Source: Methanobrevibacter sp.
GTDB lineage: Archaea; Methanobacteriota; Methanobacteria; Methanobacteriales; Methanobacteriaceae
DNA length: 64,000 bases
Direction of reading: 5' to 3'
NCBI RefSeq assembly: GCF_017539065.1
Contig: NZ_JAFYHP010000016.1
Coordinates: 62,001 to 126,000, forward strand
Positions within the stretch are counted from its first letter, which is position 1. Each line of letters starts with the position of its first letter. The notes beneath the pieces are model-generated. The model was not told the DNA's origin and did not search any database. It was given only the letters and a program-made list of their open reading frames with translations. Of the stretch, positions 12,762 through 50,779 are shown in pieces. The translations under genes and the position numbers were made by a program.

Positions 12762-13481
12762 ATGAATGAGAAGTTTTCAAGAACAGAAATGTTAATTGGA
12801 AATGATGGAATGAAAAAATTGAATGATGCCAAAGTTGCCGTTTTTGGCCTTGGAGGTGTAGGATCTTTTGTTTGTGAAGGACTCGCCAGAAGTGGAATAG
12901 GCAACTTTATTCTAGTGGACTTTGACAAGATAGATGAAAGCAACATCAACAGACAATTAATTGCAACAACAAAAACAATCGGCAAATATAAGGTTGATTT
13001 AATGAAGGAAAGAATTCTAGAAATCAATCCGGATGCCAACGTTGAAATCTATAAGGAATTTTACATGGAAGATTCAAAAACTGATATCATTACAGAAGAC
13101 CTGTCATATGCTGTCGATTGTGTGGACACGATAATGGCAAAGATTGCAATAGTGTGCAAATGCGATTCCATTGGCGTTCCGGTCATTTCATCAATGGGGA
13201 CCGGGAACAAATTAGACCCTACAATGTTTGAGGTGGCGGATATTTATGAAACCTCCGTGTGCCCGCTTGCCAGAATAATGAAAAAGGATTTCAGAAAGAG
13301 AAATATAGAAAAACTAAAAGTGGTATATTCCAAGGAACAACCCATAAACACAAACGATTGTGCTATAAATCAAAAAGATTCAAAATATAAGGTGAAAGGC
13401 AGCATTTCATTTGTACCATCCGTTGCAGGATTGATAATTGCCGGTGAAGTAATTAAAGACATTACTGACAATAATGTCTAA
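12762..13481 (+). CDS. tcdA: TcdA/ThiF-like E1 adenylyltransferase
   Basis: A 239-aa protein of the MoeB/ThiF/E1 superfamily. The nucleotide loop is VFGLGGVGSFVCEGL (28-42), followed by DFDKIDESNINRQL with the conserved Asp and Arg. The region after CVDTIMAK and the ISSMGTGNKLDPTMFEV stretch match YgdL/TcdA, which cyclises t6A to ct6A in tRNA. No CXXC zinc pairs typical of MoeB/ThiF are seen. The strong GGTGAGGGG lies before ATG 12762, ruling out the upstream TTG. This is the last chromosomal gene before the left element junction at 13583. In the uninterrupted chromosome it would lie upstream of fpaA. Confidence 0.8.
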   Translation: MNEKFSRTEMLIGNDGMKKLNDAKVAVFGLGGVGSFVCEGLARSGIGNFILVDFDKIDESNINRQLIATTKTIGKYKVDLMKERILEINPDANVEIYKEFYMEDSKTDIITEDLSYAVDCVDTIMAKIAIVCKCDSIGVPVISSMGTGNKLDPTMFEVADIYETSVCPLARIMKKDFRKRNIEKLKVVYSKEQPINTNDCAINQKDSKYKVKGSISFVPSVAGLIIAGEVIKDITDNNV

Positions 13482-13572
13482 AAAATCGAATGAGGCTATA
13501 AATTAATCAACATCTATGATTAAAAGCCCCCATCACTAAAAACTCTTAATTTAAATAAGAACCCCTAAAAGA

Positions 13573-13589
13573 ATACGAATAATTCGTAT
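13573..13589. promoter_or_regulatory. Orphan perfect palindrome, probable MsvR operator cut off from fpaA
   Basis: A perfect 17-bp palindrome, ATACGAAT-A-ATTCGTAT. Its half-site TTCGTA matches those upstream of msvR (11893) and fpaA (49454). No chromosomal gene on either strand begins near it. If the two chromosomal flanks are rejoined at TTCGTATAAAAC, the palindrome falls about 15 bp upstream of the fpaA TATA box, a normal operator position. That reconstruction is inference; the palindrome and the shared half-site are seen directly. Confidence 0.65.
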
Positions 13590-13594
13590 AAAAC
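13583..13594 (+). other. attL core of the integrated element
   Basis: The 12-bp sequence TTCGTATAAAAC is repeated in the same orientation at 49454-49465. On the element side, 6 bp further in, lies AAAAGTTCCGATACTTAT (13601-13618). It is inverted (17 of 18 bases) relative to ATAAGTATCTGAACTTTT at 49429-49446, which lies 7 bp from the right core. A core flanked by near-symmetric inverted arms is the expected structure of a tyrosine-recombinase attachment site. Confidence 0.8.
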
Positions 13595-13922
13595 TTATAA
13601 AAAAGTTCCGATACTTATCGATTCGAACCACTAAAACTCTACTAAACAATTTATTTTTTACAAGTGATAAAATTTTTGGAATGCCTTTGCTGACATTATT
13701 ATTTCATTTATATAAACAATATAATAAAACGGATAATAAAGCTCTATTAGGTCTGAAACATTAATTTAATGCTTACCTAGGCATTTACGATTTATACATT
13801 TGACTTTTTTTATAGACAATTTATGTTTTAATGTTTAGCAAAATTTCGAAAAATACAAGGCTTATGGACACAATTTTTTCTCAAAAAAATGAACAGTTTA
13901 ACAATAAATACTAATAGAAATG

Positions 13923-14035
13923 TTTATATATCCAAATTAACAAACTATCAACTAGCCTCCACCATTGAAGTAAATTTTACGAAGTGAAATCAACTTTTCA
14001 CGGTAAAACAACTTTTTTTGGTGAGGCCTGAAAAT
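13923..14035 (+). ncRNA. Probable small structured RNA with its own TATA box
   Basis: TTTATATAT at 13923-13931 is a good archaeal TATA box, and the expected start about 25 bp on falls at 13950-13955. The sequence there, GCCTC-c-ACC (13955-13963), pairs with GGTGAGGC at 14020-14027. Inside is a second stem, TTTTAC (13975-13980) with GTAAAA (14003-14008), then GTGAAA (13984-13989) with TTTCAC (13996-14001) closing a 6-nt loop. The two halves are joined by 11-nt strands on each side, forming a large internal loop. No reading frame follows. The shape recalls a guide-RNA pocket, but no ACA box is seen right after the outer stem. Transcript ends are estimates. Confidence 0.5.
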
Positions 14036-14432
14036 CAATTTAGAGAGGTAAAATACTAGAAAAGAAATAGTAAAAATCAGATCATGAAAAAAGGATTATA
14101 AAAAAAATTCTTAATTGAATGACGAGTTATTAAGATATTTTTAGAATAATCCCATGGGCAGTGAGAAAAATAAAAATAATTAGACATGTCGCGAAACTAT
14201 GTTAAAAATTAATATTTTCCAAAACTTAACCCAATAACTAGTTTATTTTAAGGGATATATAAAGATTGTCAAATCCAAAAAAGCGAAACTTATCTTATTC
14301 TAAATATTGGCTAAAAGATGGAGAATTGATTTTGCCAATGCTATTTATTTTTTAAAAATTTCCTGCCCCCATGAGCTTAGACTGTCGAATTTATAATCCT
14401 CCCATGAAGGGAAAAACAGGAGAAGAAAAACC

Positions 14433-14546
14433 ATGAGAAAAAAGGAAATAAATGGAAAAATGTATGTTGCAATCCCAAAGAAACTGTGGGATAGAATGTG
14501 GGAAATTTTAGATAGAATTGAAGAAATTTGTGAGAATTTAAAATGA
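14433..14546 (+). CDS. 37-aa protein coupled to the replication-type gene
   Basis: A short frame, MRKKEINGKMYVAIPKKLWD and on to EICENLK, with an AGGAG ribosome site about ten bases before the ATG. Its stop codon overlaps the start of the next gene as ATGA, so the two should be translationally coupled. The protein is basic at the start and then an amphipathic helix with Trp/Met (LWDRMWEILDRIEEI). That would suit a small DNA-binding or copy-control helper of the replication protein. I do not recognise a family. A TATA-like GGATATATAAAG at about 14253-14264 could start this operon. Confidence 0.6.
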   Translation: MRKKEINGKMYVAIPKKLWDRMWEILDRIEEICENLK

Positions 14547-16225
14547 GTAAAGCAGCTGAATTACCCACAAAAGATACAATAGCACTCATTATCAATAGGA
14601 AAAACATTGATAAGGTTACCTACGTATTCAAAAACAAGTATGGCAATAAGATTGGAGAATATGAAAACAGATCTCCGGCTACATTGTCTTCCAGAAGTAA
14701 TGTCGCAAGACAATTCAAACAGCTCATAAATCCAAAAGGTGATATTGAACCCGCCATATTCAACAATAAGTTCACAGAATTGAAACAGCTCCTGCAACTT
14801 CACTATGAAAATGAAGTATCAGTCATTGAACAGGAAATAGCTGAAAAGAAACAGGCCGAGCAAGAAAAGGATAGTGTTAAATTAAAGGAAGCTATCACCA
14901 AATTGCAGTCATTGGTCTATCCTTTGATTTATATCGGAAGTCTTGTTGAATGGTTTACGGCAGGTGAGAGGAACAATATAATGTATGCGTTTACCGTATA
15001 TGCAGGACAAGTTGTTCTTGGAAATCCGGTATCTGTAATATGTCTTGGTGAGGCAAGCAGCGGCAAGTCCCACATACAGGAAACCGCACTGATGCTGATT
15101 CCAAAACAATACATTGTCAATGAAAAGAAAATCACTGAAGCAGCACTCTTTAACCGTGCCAAAACAGATGAATATTTTTATGACGGCAAGATTGTCAATT
15201 ACGGTGATATGGGTGGAAGCAATGACCATGAATTCATGGAGGAGTCCAAAAATCTCATGAAGGAACTGCAGTCAGACGGATTTCTAAACAAACCGTTAAG
15301 CATTCCGGACGGTGAAGGCGGATGGGAAGTCAGAGAATTGAAGTTAAAGGGAAGGCCATGCCTGACCTACACAACTGTGCCCAACCACAATTTCGATGAG
15401 CAGGAAATGAGCCGAAGCATCTTCATAACACCAAGAATGGACAACAAAAAAATATTCAATCTCAGAAAATCTGCACTTGAATTCACACATGGAAAAAGCT
15501 ACAAAATCCTAAAGAAATATGAAAAGGAAGTTGAGTTAGTGCCATATATGCTGCTGCACCTTAAGGAAGTCTTTAAAGACATTGTAATAATAAATCCTTA
15601 TATTAACTTTGTCATCAACTTCCTGAAGGATTCATCTTTCTACAAAAGGGATTTTGACAAGTTCAACGGCATACTGAAAACAATAACTGCCCTGAACTAC
15701 TATAACCATGAAGTCCATGACATTGACGGTGAAACGGTGATCCTTACCAATCTTTCAGATGTGCAGCAATTCATGAGCATACTGCAGCCCTATAAGGAAA
15801 GCATATCTGCAAACATCTCGCCCAAGGCTGTTGAGGTCTTGAATGATATCAGAAACAATATCGATGACTGGATAATGGAAATTGACCCGGAAGAATTGAG
15901 CCTGGGAATTACAACCAACCAATACTTCACACTCCAGAATCTTGGATTGAGCAAGGACTCAGTGAAGAAATACATATATGAATTGGCAAATAATGGATTT
16001 CTTCAGATAACAGATCATTCAGGAAAATCCAACGTATATAACCTGACCAAAAGTGAAGTTGCATACATCAATGATGATTTAAAGCAAATTGATGATTCAA
16101 TACATCAAATCATCTGCCGTGAGGTTGGAGAATGGGTTGTAAACATTATGATGGAAGATAAGTTCGTAGAGGATTTAAGCATTATGAACTTTGATTCGGA
16201 AGTGAAAAAACCGCCATGGCTGTGA
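14543..16225 (+). CDS. P-loop ATPase with C-terminal winged helix, probable element replication protein
   Basis: A 560-aa protein with a helical, Lys/Glu-rich N-terminal part (about 75-120) and a P-loop ATPase core. Walker A is GEASSGKS (169-176), a Walker B-like segment KIVNYGDMGG is at 216-225, and RSIFITPRMD may supply the arginine finger. The C-terminal 100 residues look like a winged helix (LSLGITTNQYFTLQNLGLSK then VKKYIYELANNGFL). This layout recalls helicases of plasmid and virus replicons of the D5/MCM-like AAA+ type; the exact family is not recognised. Codon choice looks richer in G+C than the neighbouring defence genes. An iteron-like repeat cluster begins just past its stop. Confidence 0.6.
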   Translation: MSKAAELPTKDTIALIINRKNIDKVTYVFKNKYGNKIGEYENRSPATLSSRSNVARQFKQLINPKGDIEPAIFNNKFTELKQLLQLHYENEVSVIEQEIAEKKQAEQEKDSVKLKEAITKLQSLVYPLIYIGSLVEWFTAGERNNIMYAFTVYAGQVVLGNPVSVICLGEASSGKSHIQETALMLIPKQYIVNEKKITEAALFNRAKTDEYFYDGKIVNYGDMGGSNDHEFMEESKNLMKELQSDGFLNKPLSIPDGEGGWEVRELKLKGRPCLTYTTVPNHNFDEQEMSRSIFITPRMDNKKIFNLRKSALEFTHGKSYKILKKYEKEVELVPYMLLHLKEVFKDIVIINPYINFVINFLKDSSFYKRDFDKFNGILKTITALNYYNHEVHDIDGETVILTNLSDVQQFMSILQPYKESISANISPKAVEVLNDIRNNIDDWIMEIDPEELSLGITTNQYFTLQNLGLSKDSVKKYIYELANNGFLQITDHSGKSNVYNLTKSEVAYINDDLKQIDDSIHQIICREVGEWVVNIMMEDKFVEDLSIMNFDSEVKKPPWL

Positions 16226-16230
16226 AGACT

Positions 16231-16505
16231 TGAAAAGACTTTCTTAAAAGTCTTTTCACAAAAATGGTTTACAATCGTTTTTTGGTTAATTAAAGCATCC
16301 ATCATGGTTTGATGGTGGTTGACAATTAGCTGAAAAACTGAAAAGACCATGATTTCAGAATAATAGGGAGGACATTTAAAAGTCCCCATCATCCTGAAAA
16401 AAACAGTCTTTTCAAATATGAAAGTTTATAAGAAGCCTTCTTTAACTGTTTAAATCCTTAAAAATACATATTGAAAAGACCATGCGAAAAGTTTTCATGG
16501 TCTTT
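16231..16505. repeat. Iteron-like cluster of TGAAAAGAC repeats with two long inverted repeats
   Basis: The 9-mer TGAAAAGAC recurs at 16231 (+), 16250-16258 (-), 16339 (+), 16406-16414 (-) and 16472 (+). Two copies form a perfect hairpin with 12-bp arms, TGAAAAGACTTT (16231-16242) and AAAGTCTTTTCA (16247-16258). A second inverted repeat is AAAGACCATG (16475-16484) with CATGGTCTTT (16496-16505). The bases between its arms contain GAAAAGTTTTC, itself a palindrome. A CCATCA/TGATGG pair lies near 16300. There is no coding frame across it. Placed just after the replication-type gene, this could be an origin or its operator. Confidence 0.6.
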
Positions 16506-16528
16506 ATAAATTCTTTGAAGTTAGTGTT

Positions 16529-16843
16529 ATGAAATCTATAAGACAGCAAATAATCGAAGCCAAAAAGGAAAAGCGAGAAAGGGAAGAGGAATTGTGGTTT
16601 GTGGATTACTGCAACAACTGCAAAACAGGACTGGCATTTAAAAATGATGTGGCCTGCCACCACCCATATTACTGCTGGCATGAAGGCGAACCAGCTATTG
16701 TACAATCTGCAATTGTTAGAATAGATGAATTTCGAAGACAATATGGATACGTTACAGCGCAAATGTATGAGGAATATAAACTATTAAGAAAAAGACAACG
16801 GCAATTAATATGGCACGGCAGAAGAAAATTACTGAAAGACTAA
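16529..16843 (+). CDS. Unknown 104-aa protein with possible zinc-binding cysteines
   Basis: A small basic protein. The first 22 residues are a charged helix (RQQIIEAKKEKREREEE). A Cys/His-rich part follows with CNNC (28-31) and CHHPYYC (43-49), which could bind a metal ion. The C-terminal third is again basic (LLRKRQRQLIWHGRRKLLKD). I recognise no family; a nucleic-acid-binding role is a guess from charge. It starts 24 bp after the second inverted repeat of the iteron-like region, so that repeat probably controls or lies in its promoter (GGTCTTTATAAATT looks like the TATA element). Confidence 0.6.
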   Translation: MKSIRQQIIEAKKEKREREEELWFVDYCNNCKTGLAFKNDVACHHPYYCWHEGEPAIVQSAIVRIDEFRRQYGYVTAQMYEEYKLLRKRQRQLIWHGRRKLLKD

Positions 16844-16980
16844 TTATTAATTCCATCATCTTTTCCAATTTCAATGCCCATATTTTCTCGAACCCAGTCC
16901 GATTTGTTCCATATCCAAAAAATTCCACCCAACAAATGAATATAAAAGCTTGTATATATCCATAAACATTGTTTTCGCAC
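16840..16980 (-). CDS. Possible 46-aa membrane peptide or gene remnant
   Basis: A reverse-strand frame from GTG 16980 to TAG 16840 reads through a hydrophobic, Trp-rich stretch (SFYIHLLGGIFWIWNKSDWV) into an acidic tail ending GKDDGINN. The composition looks coding, but no clear ribosome site precedes it and the start is uncertain, so it may be the decayed end of a longer gene. Its stop overlaps that of the convergent 104-aa gene by 3 bp. Confidence 0.25.
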   Translation of the reverse strand: MRKQCLWIYTSFYIHLLGGIFWIWNKSDWVRENMGIEIGKDDGINN

Positions 16981-17433
16981 TGATTTGAAGTACCAATACT
17001 GAATTATGTTTTGTTTAACCTACCAATACCCAATTACATCATGTTTTTATAATTACTAATGTAAAATTATTAATATCATATATTGAACTTAATACACGTT
17101 TAAATATTTATACTATAACTAATTTAATTTTTATATCCCTATTCAAAGTCAGATGAATCTCAAATGTAGATATTACCCTTTAATTATTTAGTTAGCAATA
17201 CTCTTATCGTGAAACATGAGTCATGTTTTTTCATGAATTTACCCTCAAATACATCATTTGATTCAAGATTTCATCACCTTATGATGCAAATAATTGGAAT
17301 TTTCAAAAAGTAGCTATTAGAAATCAAGTTAAAATCGGAATTATCAAATAGTTGACACTTAACATTTTCCCATAGCTACTATTCAATATCATATTAAATT
17401 GTAGGATAATCAAAAAAAATAATTTGATGAAAC
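16981..17433. other. Non-coding AT-rich spacer with short repeats
   Basis: No gene is supported here. TACCAATAC occurs at 16991 and again at 17021, 30 bp apart, followed each time by AATTA and a T-rich stretch. A near-palindrome AAACATGA-G-TCATGTTT lies at 17212-17228 followed by Ts, which could be a terminator or operator. The spacer separates the replication-like module from the leftward four-gene operon that ends at 17434. Confidence 0.4.
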
Positions 17434-18384
17434 CTAATTTTCAAATAAATCCCTTACTTCTTTTTCCCAACCATCTTTATGAATTATTCTTTTAATATGT
17501 AAATTATCATCCAATATTTCTTTTTTAGTTAGTTTAGTTAATTCTATACAATTTTTATTAAAGACATATATTGCATTACCATAAAGTAAAGACTCCAATA
17601 TAGTGAAGTCTTTAAACTCAAATCCGACATACCCATTAAAACCTGATTTTCCTATAAAACCAGAAATCGGCTTAAATGAAGTAATATATTTTAACCTACG
17701 TTCATCTGCTGGTTTTTTAGTCTTTTTTGTTTGATTTAAAACTGGCTCCATGTGTTCTTTTAATTTTTCCCATGGCATTTCTCCTTCAGGCAGGATTTCC
17801 CAGTTTAATCTTTTAATGTTTTTTAAGTCTGATAGTACAGTTAATTCGCTTAAATCTCCTTTTAATACTTCACATTCTTTAAAAAGCTCTAAAAATAAAT
17901 TTATTGTATGTTTTAATATTTCATCATCTTTTTTGTATCTGAATTCTTGAGTCGCTATTATGATTTTATTACCATCTTTTTCGACTATTCTTAATTCAAT
18001 ACTTGGAGGTTCAATATATTCCCTACATATTGTTTCACGTGAAAATGTACAAATATCAGTTACTTCTTCGGTTCTATACCTACCCCTCAATTCATGTCTT
18101 GTAAATTCTCTTTCATAATATTTTGTTTCTTTACCCCAGTCGGGTCTTTTAATATAAGATCCTTCTGAATTATGCCTGCTGACAGATGAACTTTTACCTA
18201 ATCCTGAATTAATAGCAGGTAAAACTTGTTCATTTAACTCTAATTTCTCTGTAAAACCTATTTTATTTAAATTATCAAATCTACCTATATCTAATACACT
18301 AACTACTAGATTATCTCCTTCTTTTATATCTAGATTTTTGAATTGAGATTCTAATTTATTAATTCTAGTTTTATTTATTAACAT
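17434..18384 (-). CDS. Unknown 316-aa protein, last gene of the XRE-ImmA-PIN operon
   Basis: No family is recognised. The N-terminal half is mixed beta-strand-like with a basic Tyr/Arg-rich stretch near 88-110 (KYYEREFTRHELRGRYR). The middle has a long helix (DDEILKHTINLFLELFKECE). The last 55 residues (GNAIYVF, LTKKEIL, RIIHKDGW) look like a compact conserved module. No membrane segment or signal peptide is seen. The start at 18384 follows AGGGGAG. The PIN gene ends 76 bp upstream on the same strand, so it is probably the fourth gene of that operon. Its role may be as effector or regulator of the cassette; this is inference from position only. Confidence 0.6.
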   Translation of the reverse strand: MLINKTRINKLESQFKNLDIKEGDNLVVSVLDIGRFDNLNKIGFTEKLELNEQVLPAINSGLGKSSSVSRHNSEGSYIKRPDWGKETKYYEREFTRHELRGRYRTEEVTDICTFSRETICREYIEPPSIELRIVEKDGNKIIIATQEFRYKKDDEILKHTINLFLELFKECEVLKGDLSELTVLSDLKNIKRLNWEILPEGEMPWEKLKEHMEPVLNQTKKTKKPADERRLKYITSFKPISGFIGKSGFNGYVGFEFKDFTILESLLYGNAIYVFNKNCIELTKLTKKEILDDNLHIKRIIHKDGWEKEVRDLFEN

Positions 18385-18460
18385 TATTCTACTCCCCTAC
18401 AATAATCAACATATTTAATATCAAACTTATCATCATCTCTTTCAACATTACATTGATTCA

Positions 18461-19033
18461 TCATTCACTTTTTAAAAATCTTTCACAATCACTTTCGTAA
18501 AGCTCATCATGGTATTCCATGAAAGAATTTTTAGGTAAATCAATACCTTCGTTAACCATTCCTTTCCATAATCCATTTGCAGTATTTTCACTGACAATAT
18601 CCTTTTCAACTGCTTTGGATAGGATCATTGAACTTGTAATGAGTTCAATATCCAAGCTATCAATATATTCTTCCACATCACTTAGATTGTTGCTTGCTAC
18701 TATTCCATTATTCAGGTGAGCCAATGCCATTGCTGCTGATTCACCATCACCGCAGCATTTACCTGTTTGACTCCAAAAGCCTTTTTTAATTAAGTTATAA
18801 GTAGTGTATTCCGGGGACATGAATTGTATTTGTCGTGTTTCTACAAATCCATCTTTTAATTTTTTAAAATTTGTTTTTACGATTGGTGGAGTGTTATTAT
18901 CCATTAGTTCTGCATAGACTTGTTCGGGAATGACAATTTTAGTGAATAACTTTTCTAGAATATGTCCTGCGTCTACAAATAAAAAACATTCTAAACAGTC
19001 AGTATCATAAAAAACCGGTTTATTCAAGGTCAT
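18461..19033 (-). CDS. PIN-fold protein (probable RNase toxin)
   Basis: A 190-aa protein that looks like a PIN nuclease. FYDTDCLECF near the N-terminus gives the first acidic residue (D10 or D12), E42 the second, GDGESAAMALA (95-105) the typical Gly-Glu helix, and NNLSDVEEY (115-123) the last acidic group. This resembles the DUF3368-like PIN proteins of toxin-antitoxin loci. Its start region overlaps the end of the ImmA/IrrE gene by 14 bp. AGGTG lies only one base before ATG 19033, so the TTG at 19027 is an alternative start. Activity is predicted from residues only. Confidence 0.7.
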   Translation of the reverse strand: MTLNKPVFYDTDCLECFLFVDAGHILEKLFTKIVIPEQVYAELMDNNTPPIVKTNFKKLKDGFVETRQIQFMSPEYTTYNLIKKGFWSQTGKCCGDGESAAMALAHLNNGIVASNNLSDVEEYIDSLDIELITSSMILSKAVEKDIVSENTANGLWKGMVNEGIDLPKNSFMEYHDELYESDCERFLKSE

Positions 19034-19745
19034 TCACCTCATTTGAGTTATGAATGATGTCATTTCTAAAACTCCTTAATAGTATCTCCCTTCGTTTTCC
19101 ACCGGTTATCTTTTCATCCGCATATGCCTTTTCGGTTAGGCGTATTAGCTCACCTATTGATGAGTATTTCTGATTTTCTGGAGATGGTTTGTAAAGGCTA
19201 GTATCGTAACCTAATCTATCAGCTTCACGTATTACATCTGCCCCATATTCATCAAATTGGTTTTGATTAATCCAATTCATTTTTTTAAGTCTTACAAGCA
19301 TGGTAGAACGGCTGACCTGATAATGCTGTTCGCATTTTATTACATCTTCGAGTGTCCAGTCTTCAATTTGGTTTTTATTTTTAAACCAGTATAGGGCACT
19401 ATCCGGCATCAAGAAAGTTGATGCAAAGTTATTTGCATTTATTTCGCTTTGGCTGTTGTTGTTGATTCCACAAACGATAAAGTCTTCAATATCCTCATAA
19501 AGCAAGTGGTATAATTCATGAGCCAGTGTGAAGTTTTGCCTTCCAATGCTATGATTGGTATTGATGAATATTACTTTGTCGTCTTTTGTTTTTGAGCAAC
19601 ATCCGCTAATGTTGGTTTTCATTGGAAACCAAAGTACTGTTAAATTTCTTATGTTGTTATAGACTAAAGAGCGTATATTTATTGAAGCAAAGCTTTCAAC
19701 GCCCCAGTCATGTCTCAACATTTCCGCTAATGCAACGCTATTCAT
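19020..19745 (-). CDS. ImmA/IrrE-family metallopeptidase
   Basis: A 241-aa zinc peptidase of the ImmA/IrrE (COG2856, DUF955) family. The HEXXH motif is HELYH at 76-80, preceded by FTLA, with a downstream Glu/Asn-rich helix (SEINANNFASTFLMP) that should supply the third zinc ligand. Such proteases are encoded with XRE repressors and cleave them to relieve repression, or act as a toxin-antitoxin pair. Here the XRE gene ends 2 bp upstream and a PIN gene overlaps downstream, so the protease may link a signal to release of the PIN protein. That chain is inference. Confidence 0.85.
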   Translation of the reverse strand: MNSVALAEMLRHDWGVESFASINIRSLVYNNIRNLTVLWFPMKTNISGCCSKTKDDKVIFINTNHSIGRQNFTLAHELYHLLYEDIEDFIVCGINNNSQSEINANNFASTFLMPDSALYWFKNKNQIEDWTLEDVIKCEQHYQVSRSTMLVRLKKMNWINQNQFDEYGADVIREADRLGYDTSLYKPSPENQKYSSIGELIRLTEKAYADEKITGGKRREILLRSFRNDIIHNSNEVNDLE

Positions 19746-19747
19746 AT

Positions 19748-20074
19748 TTAATCATCACCATCCAGTTTTCTTAGTAATTTTAAATATCCTGTAATTTCAT
19801 TCATTTTTGCAACTACGTTTAAGTCAACCTTTTCCTCACTTCGAAATGCAATACTTGATTTTTCATGTGAATCTGTTTCCCCTAAAAGATATTCGGGAGA
19901 ACAATTGTATAATAAACATAATTTATCAAGTAAAGTCATGTTAAAGTTTCTTTCACCATTTTCTATTTTTGAAAGGTTACTTTGGGTAATTCCCAAATAG
20001 CTAGAAACTTGTTCTTGCGTATATCCGCTTTCCCTCCTTAATTCGTTTAGAGTTTTTCCTACCTTTTCATTCAT
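19748..20074 (-). CDS. XRE-family HTH repressor/antitoxin
   Basis: A 108-aa protein with one lambda-repressor-like helix-turn-helix: TLNELRRESGYTQEQVSSYL, then GITQSNLSKIENGERN (about residues 8-45). The C-terminal 50 residues are a short dimerisation or antitoxin tail. AAGGTGGATTATC precedes the ATG. It heads the leftward operon with the ImmA/IrrE protease. Palindromic sequence next to its promoter suggests autoregulation. It is the likely substrate of the protease encoded next to it. Confidence 0.85.
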   Translation of the reverse strand: MNEKVGKTLNELRRESGYTQEQVSSYLGITQSNLSKIENGERNFNMTLLDKLCLLYNCSPEYLLGETDSHEKSSIAFRSEEKVDLNVVAKMNEITGYLKLLRKLDGDD

Positions 20075-20087
20075 GATAATCCACCTT

Positions 20088-20109
20088 TAGTATTTACTAT
20101 TTTGTACTA
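20088..20109. promoter_or_regulatory. Probable operator of the XRE-ImmA-PIN operon
   Basis: TAGTA-TT-TACTA (20088-20099) is a perfect palindrome and a third TACTA half-site follows at 20105-20109. The TATA box of the operon on the minus strand (TATTTATATATTTT) lies immediately to the right, near 20112-20125. The palindrome therefore covers the expected transcription start, 14-35 bp before the XRE start codon, where a repressor would block transcription. Confidence 0.5.
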
Positions 20110-20125
20110 AAAAATATATAAATAT

Positions 20126-20493
20126 TTCTATCAAAAATATGACAAAATTGTAATCAACATATAATTTTAATTTTAATAAATACAATCAATAATCAAAATT
20201 ACATAAAACAAAATAATAATCTATAATTAATATATATTACGAATTTAAATACTATATTTTAATAAATATTAGTAAAATAGTTTTAAAATAATTTTTTAAA
20301 GAATATTAACAATAATTAAATTGAAAAATAAAATTTATGGGAAAATTATTCTTTTATCTACATCAGCCATGAAAAAAAGTTACAGCTTAAAAATAATGTT
20401 AAAATAATTACAAAAACAGTTGATTAAAAACAAGTTATATGATTAACCATGCAAATAATTAATCATAAAAATAAATATTCGAGAGGTTAACAT
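20126..20493. other. AT-rich gene-free spacer
   Basis: Apart from the promoter of the XRE operon at the left edge, I see no gene, tRNA or strong structure. It is almost pure A/T with scattered short repeats. It separates two leftward operons: the XRE operon, and the adhesin-ExbB-DUF2149 genes that end at 20494. Confidence 0.5.
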
Positions 20494-20808
20494 CTAACCT
20501 CCCTCAACCATAATTAATTTTCCCGTTACCGGATCCTTATACACCTTACCCATTTCAGTGTAACCCTGACCAGATGAGTTACTGGTATCAGGTACCTCAT
20601 CCAACTGAGTGCCCTGATCAATTTCAGTAGTCTGCTGAGCCTGCTGGATTGGATTATCATCAGTCACTAACGCCTGCATATTCCAAGAAATAATAACAAA
20701 GACTAGAAACCCTACTGCAATTACAAGCATCGCATCAACTAAATTAGAAGTACCGGCCATAGGGTCTTCTTCCACTCTTTGATGTCTTGCACTTTTTCTT
20801 CGAACCAT
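20494..20808 (-). CDS. DUF2149-family membrane protein, partner of ExbB-like channel
   Basis: A 104-aa protein with a basic cytosolic N-terminus (MVRRKSARHQRVEEDP), one membrane helix (about 26-43, MLVIAVGFLVFVIISW) and a soluble C-terminal tail ending YKDPVTGKLIMVEGG. The topology matches ExbD/TolR. The SNLVDAMLV stretch fits the DUF2149 family encoded beside MotA/TolQ/ExbB genes in methanogens. The ExbB-like gene is 6 bp upstream, so they form an ion-driven stator-like pair. The partner to which they pass energy is unknown; the large adhesin gene lies just upstream. Confidence 0.8.
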   Translation of the reverse strand: MVRRKSARHQRVEEDPMAGTSNLVDAMLVIAVGFLVFVIISWNMQALVTDDNPIQQAQQTTEIDQGTQLDEVPDTSNSSGQGYTEMGKVYKDPVTGKLIMVEGG

Positions 20809-20814
20809 AACACA

Positions 20815-21453
20815 TCAATCCATATAATCAAGTACAGCATCAGAAAGTGCATCCAAATCAGCAAGGTATCTGTCATACCAGGACTTTCTGATCTTACCTA
20901 AAACGTAGCACAGTGCTCCTGAACCGATACCTACAATTGTAGTGTTAAACGCCAATGTCAGAGAAGTTGCAAGAGTGTTGATATCACCTGCACCTAAAGC
21001 AGCAAGACCCGGACCCATTGGAATCAATGTTCCCATCAAACCCAGTGTCGGGCCGATTCTTGTAATGATATCAGTCTTGTTCAGGTTCTTGTCAATGCGT
21101 TCTTCTTCCATTTCAACTAATCGTCTTGCAGCCGCTTCACGTGAAGACTTTTTCATTGAATGAGTGTCTGAAATTTTAGTTAAAATCCTTTTTTGCAAAT
21201 CAGGAATATTTGACTGATTGACAATGACTTGTAAATGCTCAATTGAAGTTGCATTGCTGATTTTAAAAATCAAATCATAAATCTCTGAAACCTTAACCTT
21301 TTTAGTTTTGAAATGTTCAGCTATTATTTCACCTAAAAGAAACAGTGAAGCAACAACTATTATCAAAAGAATTATTAGAACCGGTATTGTCAGGCTTTGT
21401 GAAATAGTATCCATTGCAGCAGATATTAATGTATCACCCGGAAATGAAACCAA
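20815..21453 (-). CDS. MotA/TolQ/ExbB-family proton channel protein
   Basis: A MotA/TolQ/ExbB channel of about 212 residues. The first membrane helix is near 20-42 (IPVLIILLIIVVASLFLLGE). Two later helices carry the family signature GPTLGLMGTLIPMGPGLAAL and TSLTLAFNTTIVGIGSGALCYVLG. These form the ion path in ExbB. No ATG fits the N-terminus: AGGTG precedes the TTG at 21453 by seven bases, so TTG is taken as start, with GTG 21468 as the alternative. It lies between the adhesin gene and the DUF2149 gene on the same strand, in a cluster also known from other Methanobacteriales. Confidence 0.85.
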   Translation of the reverse strand: MVSFPGDTLISAAMDTISQSLTIPVLIILLIIVVASLFLLGEIIAEHFKTKKVKVSEIYDLIFKISNATSIEHLQVIVNQSNIPDLQKRILTKISDTHSMKKSSREAAARRLVEMEEERIDKNLNKTDIITRIGPTLGLMGTLIPMGPGLAALGAGDINTLATSLTLAFNTTIVGIGSGALCYVLGKIRKSWYDRYLADLDALSDAVLDYMD

Positions 21454-21580
21454 AAATATACACCTCACAAAAATTCAATTTTTAAATAAACGTGTTTTAA
21501 AAGTAAAACCAGTACATTAAAAATACCAGCTTTACTTAAAATTCCTTTTAAAGGAGAAAAAACCATGAAAATTCAACAGT

Positions 21581-48230: not shown

Positions 48231-49370
48231 TTACCCTTCACCAATCATGTTTATGATGCCCAAAAGTTCTTTCTTCAAACCTCTCATCTCCTCAATTTCA
48301 TTTCTCATGCTGCCTACTTCTGACCTTAAGGATTCATTTTCCTTTTCCATTTGAATGAACTGAGGTGATTTAATAGATAGCTTTTCAACATCGGTATTGA
48401 TTGTTACTGCAGGAAGATGCTTGATATATTCAAATTTCAAATCGTCAGGATTTGTCATGAAATATGCTGCGTCCGTTTTGTTTTTGGCCTTGCCCTGCAA
48501 ATCATTGACCTTGTCCAAACTCATACCACTATTATACAATGCGGATGCATGAAACTTCCTGAGCATATGGCTTCTAAGCCTTCGATACTTTCCAACCCTA
48601 CCTAGGCCTAAAGTGTCATTGATCATTTCAAATGACTGCACCATATATGTCCTGCTAATCCTAAACAGTGGACTTTCATCAGTTAAAGGTTTATCACGAA
48701 GCAACAGATATGCATTAATGGCCTTTACAGCTTCAGGACTGCAGTATGTGATGTAATACTTGTTTGTTTTTTTCCTTAAAATGCTAAATGTCGGAACCAC
48801 ATCATCGACATTATTTAGATAATCGATTACATTAAAGATGTCCATATTCCTGTAGGGAAGATATTCAGACAATGCCTCAATATAATCTCCGATTGTCAGG
48901 CTCAGTGTTTCCGTTCTGGCACATCCGCTGGAACAGGAAAACAATATTATAGCTTTCATTAGAGGAGAAGCAATTAGAAAAGCTTCTCTAATTACTTCCT
49001 TATCCGGCAAGTCCTTGAAATATATCGGAGCCGGCTTTTGAATGCTTTTTTCATTAATCTTAGGCAGTGACAATATCTCTATGTCATAGAATTTATAGAA
49101 ATATTTGATGCAGTTCATCTCTTTTCTCACAGTTCCCGGAGCATAATGCTGATACATGTAATGCCTGTATTCAACCAATTTTGCTTTCAAGCGACTGTGT
49201 TTCCATTTCACACCATTCATCTCATCTTCTTCAGCTTCATCAAGAAGCTCTTTTAAGCTCATACCGAAATACTCACAGTACTTTCTAAGCGAAAGTTCAT
49301 AGCTTAAGAATGTGCCCTGTGAATGGTTACAGCTTATTGAAAAATTTCTTAATAACTCGTCATTTATCAT
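48231..49370 (-). CDS. int: Tyrosine recombinase (integrase) of the element
   Basis: A 379-aa integrase. An N-terminal SAM-like core-binding domain (1-110) is followed by the catalytic domain with R152 in CSSGCARTETLSL, K203 on the beta-hairpin (RKKTNKYYI), H268 and R271 in RSHMLRKF, G292 in DLQGKAK, and nucleophile Y303 in DAAYFMTNP. The last 35 residues are a coiled coil. All catalytic residues are present, so it may be active. ATG 49370 is favoured over GTG 49379 by AAAGTGATTAGT before it. The gene starts 59 bp from the right inverted arm and reads into the element, as integrases beside their attachment site do. Confidence 0.9.
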   Translation of the reverse strand: MINDELLRNFSISCNHSQGTFLSYELSLRKYCEYFGMSLKELLDEAEEDEMNGVKWKHSRLKAKLVEYRHYMYQHYAPGTVRKEMNCIKYFYKFYDIEILSLPKINEKSIQKPAPIYFKDLPDKEVIREAFLIASPLMKAIILFSCSSGCARTETLSLTIGDYIEALSEYLPYRNMDIFNVIDYLNNVDDVVPTFSILRKKTNKYYITYCSPEAVKAINAYLLLRDKPLTDESPLFRISRTYMVQSFEMINDTLGLGRVGKYRRLRSHMLRKFHASALYNSGMSLDKVNDLQGKAKNKTDAAYFMTNPDDLKFEYIKHLPAVTINTDVEKLSIKSPQFIQMEKENESLRSEVGSMRNEIEEMRGLKKELLGIINMIGEG

Positions 49371-49428
49371 ACTAATCACTTTTATTGCTTATTTATAAAA
49401 AATCTTGAGAGAGAGCGGTTGAAAAGTA

Positions 49429-49552: not shown

Positions 49553-50779
49553 ATGAAAGCTAATGCACAAAAAATAGCTGATGGAGTATACTGGGTTGGT
49601 GTACTCGATTGGGATTTAAGAACCTACCACGGTTACACATTAGACGGAACCACCTACAATGCGTACATTGTATTCGGTGAAGACGAAGTAGCAGTCATTG
49701 ATAATGCATATCCTGGTAAAACCAAAGAAATGATGGCACGTATCGATGATGCATTTGCTCAAGAAGGAAGAGAAGTCAAAGTCGACTACATTATCCAAAA
49801 CCACGTGGAAAAAGACCACTCCGGTGTCTTAGTGGACTTGCACAAAAGATTCCCGGAAGCACCTATTTACTGTTCTAAAATTGCAGTAAACGGTTTGTTA
49901 AAACACTACCCTGCACTTGAAGGAGCAGAATTTATCACTGTAGGAACCGGTGACAGCCTGGATGTTGGCGGAAGAACATTAGCATTCCTTGATGCATTCT
50001 TGCTACACTGGCCTGACAGCATGTTCACATTACTTGCCGATGAAACAGGAATTTTATTCCCTAATGATGCGTTTGGCCAACACTTATGTTTCACCAAAAG
50101 ATTCTCAGATGAAATCCCTGAAAACATCCTAATGGATGCGGCACAAAAATTCTATGCAAACTTAATCACCCCACTTTCAAAATTAGTTCTTAAAAAATTA
50201 AATGAAGTAGTTGAATTAGGATTGCTTGATTCAATTAAAATGATTGCACCATCACACGGTCAAATCTGGACCGACCCAATGCAAATCATTGGAGCTTACC
50301 AAAACTGGGCAACAGGTGTATGTGAAGACAAAATCACAATTATCTACGACACAATGCATTACTCAACCCAACAAATGGCTCATGAAATTGCAGAAGGTGC
50401 AATGTCAGAAGGATATGATGTGGAAATCTTCTTCTTACACGAAGATGAAAGATCAGAAATCGTTAAAAGTATCTTGACAAGTAAAGGAATAGCTGTTGGT
50501 GACCCAACAATTAATGATGTGCCATATCCTAGTATTGGTGACATCATGTACTACTTGAAAGGATTATTGTTCAACAGAACAGGTATTGAAAGAAAAGCAG
50601 TTACCTTTGGTTCAATGGGTGGAAGAGGCGGATCCCCTGCAAAACTCGCTGAAGAATTAGGAAACTGCGGATTTGATGTAATTGACACCCAAGAAATTGT
50701 TTTTGTACCAAATGCTGAAGAAGAAGAAGCAAGCTATGAATTAGGTAAAAAATTAGCACAAGCATGTAAAGAATTATAA
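49553..50779 (+). CDS. fpaA: F420H2 oxidase (flavodiiron protein FpaA/FprA)
   Basis: A 408-aa flavodiiron protein that reduces O2 to water with F420H2, a main oxygen defence of methanogens. The N-terminal metallo-beta-lactamase-like domain has the diiron ligands H84, E86, D88 (HVEKDH), H152 (LHWPDS), D172 (NDAFGQH) and H235 (PSHGQIW). The C-terminal flavodoxin domain begins at about 256 with the FMN loop [12 protein letters not shown] and has [10 protein letters not shown] later. GGAG precedes the ATG. A rubrerythrin-like gene follows after 10 bp. In relatives this operon is controlled by MsvR; here the promoter coincides with the right end of an integrated element. Confidence 0.95.

Follow-up and report, generated by a model that had tools for sequence, protein, structure and literature searches.

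The repeat array that lies directly 3' of the gene for a 560-aa protein, here called Rep, in a 64-kb stretch of Methanobrevibacter DNA (the window, by which we mean the whole stretch analysed) very probably is, or was, the replication origin of a tailed-provirus replicon, of the iteron type and with its own initiator helicase. The initial annotation of this DNA had suggested an iteron-like array as a possible origin. This suggestion gains support from the comparison of relatives, since homologous elements also carry arrays and their repeat unit appears to co-vary with the winged helix of Rep. Beyond the view of that annotation lay the derivation of the whole unit from a provirus, and the larger and more regular full arrays of its relatives. 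The features concerned are the following, with other loci designated by L numbers:

13565..14430, no strand: conserved non-coding upstream stretch; the left end of the cassette is common to related species (alignments)
14433..14546, plus: short ORF of 37 codons overlapping the start of rep, conserved in L031, L037, L043 and L038
14543..16225, plus: putative initiator helicase Rep, 560 aa, with an N-terminal part, an AAA+ ATPase and a C-terminal winged helix (ORF, AlphaFold2, Foldseek, homologues)
15893..16057, plus: winged-helix domain, residues 451-505, proposed iteron reader, with residue 472 (Asp) at 15956-15958 (co-variation of domain and iteron)
16223..16506, no strand: candidate iteron array, proposed replication origin (9-mer counts and positional homologues)
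16231..16239, plus: iteron 1, TGAAAAGAC, left arm of the hairpin 16231-16258 (9-mer count, hairpin check)
16250..16258, minus: iteron 2, right arm of the hairpin (9-mer count, hairpin check)
16339..16347, plus: iteron 3 (9-mer count)
about 16367..16387, no strand: central GC-richer hairpin, region of GGAGGACATTTAAAAGTCCCC (sequence)
16406..16414, minus: iteron 4 (9-mer count)
16472..16480, plus: iteron 5, left arm of the 10-bp inverted repeat (9-mer count, sequence)
16498..16505, minus: eroded sixth half-site, inverted, TGGTCTTT (sequence and alignment of relatives)
16529..16843, plus: conserved small protein of 104 aa with the motif CxNC...CHHPxYCW, part of the module, found with rep in 17 loci
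16812..17372, minus: terminase large-subunit pseudogene with many in-frame stops, a provirus relic (tblastn 37% over 192 aa; stops common to relatives)
19020-19745, minus: IrrE/ImmA-type metallopeptidase (Pfam Peptidase_M78), divergence as low as that of rep
19748-20074, minus: HTH regulator (Pfam HTH_3), divergence as low as that of rep

The five copies of TGAAAAGAC, in both orientations within 250 bp, lie exactly where they had been annotated, and the window contains no other. Shuffled sequence yields a mean of 1.08 copies per whole window. Since the 1.84-Mb assembly holds only 21 copies, five of them in the array, the density is far above chance, as had been claimed, and the 9-mer is rare in the genome. 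The 12-bp-arm hairpin is exact (16231-16242 and 16247-16258), and so is the second inverted repeat, whose 10-bp arms AAAGACCATG (16475-16484) and CATGGTCTTT (16496-16505) enclose GAAAAGTTTTC. The hairpin pattern, TGAAAAGAC and GTCTTTTCA separated by 4-30 nucleotides, occurs in four of the 67 genomes of the genus, once in each and always directly 3' of a homologue of the 560-aa gene. The eroded half-site, a possible degenerate site (TGAAGAC) at 16223-16229 and the central hairpin had been missed; many relatives have a hairpin-forming stretch at the place of the latter in the gap alignment. The AT content of the array is 70%, compared with 68% for the window, and reaches 79% in one sub-stretch. 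The gap that the array occupies, 5' of the 104-aa gene, is rich in indels between relatives, and therefore no conserved frame spans it. The earlier statement that the region has no coding frame holds in this sense, but mechanical ORFs on the minus strand do run across the gap. A search for an ORB-like box of the host Orc1/Cdc6 type (TTACACTTGAAA) with up to two mismatches gave no match near the array and chance-level matches across the window.

The gene preceding the array had been described as being of the replication type, and the predicted fold of its product is consistent with this. The AlphaFold2 model, built with the 19 homologues (mean pLDDT 85), finds its best Foldseek matches in the PDB among MCM/CMG helicase chains, with E down to 8e-8 and a probability of 1.00; the AAA domain of PfMCM matches with a TM-score of 0.61 by target length and E 2.2e-4. 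The whole-query TM-scores are 0.35-0.40, and the likeness is therefore confined to the AAA+ core. SCCmec Cch, the primase-helicase SaPI5 Rep and SF3 helicases are also among the matches. The Walker A motif is GEASSGKS (residues 169-176), with G169, G174 and K175 invariant across the 19 homologues. In the C-terminal part, the model has the helix-helix-strand-strand order of a winged helix, which also gives a weak Pfam match at residues 455-502. At the sequence level, Rep had no confident match in Pfam, PHROGs or the PDB sequences; the MCM Pfam profile did not match, though an MCM AAA+ fold is predicted, nor did any rolling-circle endonuclease family in Pfam or PHROGs, and no fused primase was found. 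The AAA+ part weakly matched plasmid CHC2 proteins by tblastn (22-25% identity, best E 3e-8). Homologues of Rep are present in 24 of the 139 family genomes and on 17 IMG/VR viral contigs, the latter found with an alignment query, whereas a single-protein query found none; the named database records are Methanobrevibacter MAGs.

A repeat array lies directly 3' of rep in most of the homologues (about 30), down to 26% identity, and including complete proviruses and IMG/VR contigs. The presence of an array downstream of the homologues is therefore a conserved feature in terms of place, but this does not extend to the 9-mer. The unit differs from lineage to lineage, as expected of iterons with a co-evolving initiator: AAAAGAC, AAAAAC, mixed AAA[A/T]AC, ATTGCCA (L048, L064, L065), AGCGACA (L049, L068), TATGCGAA (L062, with 13 seven-mer copies), TTGCAAA (L063, L066, L067), GGCGGCCA (L059), AGTCGCG (L060), AACGACA (L057), TGGCAAA (L061), and TTGTACA, which in L050 (rep 26% identical) forms a long run from the rep stop to the next gene. 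Close homologues can be aligned over the full length of the gap that separates rep from the small gene; in those of 39-48% identity, the array keeps its place but consists of unrelated units.

The arrays of complete proviruses are longer, with plus-oriented copies about 9 bp apart right after rep and copies of the opposite orientation, at the same spacing, ahead of the next gene. In the full relatives, these two opposed clusters enclose a centre of 150-250 bp with palindromes. Measured from the end of rep, the copies lie at 18, 27, 36, 45, 54 and 63 (plus) in L057, at 34, 43, 52, 61, 70 and 79 (plus) and 304, 313 and 322 (minus) in L059, and at 347, 356 and 365 (minus) in L052. The number of sites ranges from 5 to 16. 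The window array represents five full sites of this plan, its ladder being reduced, and L031 retains all five. The count of a single 7-mer is above the 99th percentile of shuffles in about three quarters of the arrayed elements, and the remaining ones, mostly T-class or few-copy, are at or just under it. A strict detector of same-6-mer ladders caught only the most regular arrays, and the array calls therefore rest on 7-mer counts, site maps and reading of the sequences. No array follows rep in L046, L047 and L069, and in the latter two the small gene comes at once. Elements co-resident in one genome had different iteron classes, which resembled plasmid compatibility, but the numbers are too small to claim such a pattern.

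The iteron classes correspond to clades on the Rep tree. Between homologues with the same iteron, the winged-helix domain equals the AAA+ core in conservation (-1.3 points), whereas between those with different iterons it falls behind (-13.6 points), and the p-values of this pairwise comparison are descriptive, as they treat pairs as independent and ignore relatedness. The N-terminal part, the CTD1/linker region and the tail have no comparable contrast. For example, the winged helices of L048 and L064, which have a common unit, are 98% identical and their flanking regions 75% and 74%; the values for L049 and L068, also with a common unit, are 95%, 84% and 69%, while L048 and L049, with different units, have winged helices of 65% identity. 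Winged-helix similarity thus appears to track the repeat unit and that of the other domains does not, in a correlation that involves few independent switches.

The variable base of AAANAC points in the same direction. Among the 18 close homologues, the window clade, to which L031 belongs, has 6-9 G sites and a few A, the A clade, with L034 and L032 among its members, has 11-16 A sites and nearly nothing else, and the T clade, with L041 and L052, mixes A (9) with T (6-7). Residue 472, which follows LSK in the recognition helix, is Asp in the G clade, Ala in the A clade and Gly in the A+T clade, in 18/18 cases. The homologous sites of an array switch together between G, A or T, and for dispersed single-copy sites to do so would require a common reader. 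The match between residue and base may be taken as a strong lead, not as proof, because it amounts to about two independent switches, one of the G clade and another of the T clade. The repeats might also be read by the 104-aa protein, in addition to Rep or in its place.

According to the mechanism that we propose, Rep would bind the repeats through its C-terminal winged helix and oligomerise into AAA+ rings at both of the opposed clusters. The DNA would be opened mid-array, between the clusters, and Rep would act as the replicative helicase, or recruit and load it, with the remaining replication functions provided by the host. We infer these events at the array, from Rep binding through DNA melting and helicase loading to replication.

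In complete loci, rep lies between an upstream gene for a tyrosine integrase and a downstream gene for the terminase large subunit, and these loci are therefore tailed proviruses of Methanobrevibacter. Given that no integrase is adjacent to the window cassette and that its terminase is a pseudogene, the window copy is a derivative and not a provirus; it seems to have been derived by internal deletion. On the Rep tree, the window copy forms one clade with L031, L043, L037 and L038 (support 96/93). An intact terminase is missing near rep in all five, four of which have recognisable terminase relics. L031 has every one of the 12 in-frame stops of the window relic and L037 has six of them, and thus the terminase was dead before these copies split. 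Since the split, rep has evolved with a dN/dS of 0.09-0.11 (0.09 between the window and L031, with dN 0.010 and dS 0.118), and the 104-aa gene with 0.08 against L031 and 0.19-0.23 against L043 and L037. Between the window and L031, the dN of rep is lower than the divergence of the terminase relic (5%). These substitution patterns indicate that both genes are under purifying selection after the death of the terminase, and the unit is therefore probably still used; its use as a satellite-like or domesticated replicon is less certain. While rep is intact in the window and in L031, it is frameshifted in L037 and L038, which argues for partial decay.

The cassette has also moved. The window and L031 are 95.5% identical over a 7.9-kb block (13565-21486), compared with 77% and 71% in the flanks, and their dS is at least 1.3 for the host genes of the left flank and 0.11-0.15 in the rep, 104-aa and HTH/IrrE genes. 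Such low divergence between diverged flanks indicates transfer of the block from one species to another, either because it is itself mobile or through recombination. L031, L037 and L043 have the left end of homology in common (13565-13578). No direct-repeat att sites of at least 13 bp were found flanking the cassette (13300-14540 versus 17000-21000). An intact tyrosine integrase at 48231-49379 (minus), beside a flavodiiron-type gene (fprA, 49553-50779), was considered as the element's own and set aside, as it lies 32 kb from the cassette and no link was established. In L043, homologous integrase fragments lie beside the same flavodiiron-type gene, about 4 kb from its rep cassette.

Several further observations concern the contents of the cassette. 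The HTH regulator, the IrrE-type peptidase and a 190-aa protein (18461-20074, minus) travel with it in L031 and L037; the first two are probably the regulatory pair of the element, which we take to resemble the ImmR/ImmA regulation of mobile elements. The stretch 13695-14430 is non-coding and strongly conserved, and its counterpart in complete proviruses is situated kilobases upstream of rep, where it separates the integrase from the genes that follow; it is possibly a second regulatory region. A 45-bp sequence (13696-13740) recurs with 80-87% identity in several proviruses (L034:12383-12427, L034:16216-16260, L035:15051-15095), one of the L034 copies lying 12 bp past the stop of the homologue of the 104-aa gene. 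Genes of the clusters c3 and c4 (about 185 and 167 aa) are always upstream of rep in complete proviruses (L005, L010, L034 and others) and absent from window-type cassettes. Within rep, indels of -1, +2, -3 and -1 in L037, L038, L043 and L044 fall within about 8 bp at codons 150-153 (window about 14990-15005), some 20 codons before Walker A, and almost none occur elsewhere in the 1.68-kb gene. The three frame-breaking indels are all net -1. A nuclease site, programmed frameshift or slippage are possible explanations; CRISPR self-targeting was discarded, as a 30-mer search with 3 mismatches across the 139 family genomes matched only rep genes.

Other functions of the array have to be weighed against an origin. 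Rep or another regulator might bind the repeats only to control rep or the downstream gene. The location between two same-strand genes would suit such an operator array, as would the fact that iterons often double in autoregulation in iteron plasmids. However, the array is downstream of rep, away from its promoter, an operator does not usually have as many as 5 to 16 sites arranged in two opposed clusters, and the co-varying reader domain sits in a replicative-helicase-like protein, so we consider this function unlikely. That the hairpins work in the transcript, as a structured RNA or a transcription terminator, is hardly credible. It would explain the perfect 12-bp hairpin and the paired arms with some compensatory changes, but pairing alone does not need one sequence common to all stems and changing together, and the densest part of the array in complete relatives is an unpaired direct-repeat ladder. 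Moreover, the array matched no Rfam family (best matches far below the gathering scores), and its sole terminator-like site is on the minus strand. An origin of the stem-loop or rolling-circle kind is another alternative, in which the hairpin would be recognised and not the repeats. The Sulfolobus element pRN1 offers the precedent, being an archaeal element with a replication gene, a C-terminal winged helix and an origin just 3', which needs a stem-loop at that place (PMC4234260), and hairpins are present here too. In pRN1, however, a large stem-loop stands without iterons, according to its authors, and a primase-polymerase is fused to an SF3 helicase (PMC4234260), whereas here the repeats are the conserved feature. 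As Rep, in addition, matches no rolling-circle endonuclease family in Pfam or PHROGs and is predicted to fold as an AAA+ helicase, we regard a pRN1-like origin as very unlikely.

A different question is whether the window copy of the ancestral virus origin is a dead relic without present function, a possibility that we take seriously while leaning against it. The loss of the adjacent integrase and of the terminase, the reduction of the ladder to five sites and the frameshifted rep in two of the five cassettes of the clade all speak for decay. They are opposed by the intact rep of the window and L031 and by the low dN/dS of rep and the downstream gene, with a terminase already dead at the split, as well as by the retention of all five sites in L031. 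The origin of a tailed-provirus replicon, in use now or in the past, remains our preferred explanation of the array.

An iteron origin beside an initiator gene is of a known kind. In SaPI and SCCmec Cch2, the nearest parallel with experimental backing, a self-loading helicase has been demonstrated to read short repeats directly downstream of its gene through its C-terminal domain (PMC7581432). The Rep locus shares with them an AAA+ helicase gene followed directly by short repeats, here a proposed origin, in an integrated mobile element; reading by the C-terminal domain, experimental there, is what we infer for Rep. On the other hand, the setting here is one of archaeal tailed proviruses, no fused primase was found, and the units differ radically between close relatives. 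Pfam and PDB searches revealed no sequence homology of Rep to Cch (DUF927) or to Cch2/SaPI Rep (D5_N, Primase_Cterm). Rep would thus work like the SaPI/SCC modules, but we do not file it as a member, because the resemblance is one of fold without a sequence match. MCM helicases provide the nearest solved folds for the AAA+ core, yet Rep lacks a Pfam MCM match, and has its own winged helix and its own array beside it. The similarity to CHC2 primase-helicases of bacterial plasmids (Leptospira, Aureibacter and others) extends over the AAA+ part; these records are annotated as CHC2 zinc-finger proteins, and Pfam finds no such domain in Rep. At the lambda-O and P4-alpha origins, a phage-encoded initiator acts on repeats at or near its own gene, in P4 alpha with a winged helix on the repeats. 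The protein families are different there, and the repeats studied here are 3' of the gene and vary by lineage. P4 is among the phage origins treated in PMC4234260. A literature search, with incomplete coverage of some key papers, found no description of the present origin. As far as checked, the novelty lies in the family to which the protein belongs, in the setting of archaeal tailed viruses, in the 9-bp ladders of opposed orientation and in the visible co-variation of repeat unit with recognition helix.

To conclude, we tentatively propose a broader picture, in which the window represents a separate clade of virion-less cassettes made up of rep, the origin, the small protein and HTH/IrrE. 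These would have come from tailed proviruses and spread among Methanobrevibacter species, each time to the same chromosomal neighbourhood, and selection may keep them either as satellites of the related viruses or in the form of a domesticated origin interfering with these, with Rep perhaps near a one-residue/one-base code (Asp, Gly or Ala at 472 versus G, A or T, and A). The origins of tailed archaeal viruses in gut and rumen methanogens are poorly known, and the candidate origin can be located from sequence alone across the whole Rep family. Because nature provides a series of units with matching winged helices, a joint change of initiator and origin specificity is directly testable. Rep together with the array is a candidate replicon for methanogen genetic tools, and the cassettes that have outlasted their virion genes qualify as candidate satellites of archaeal viruses.
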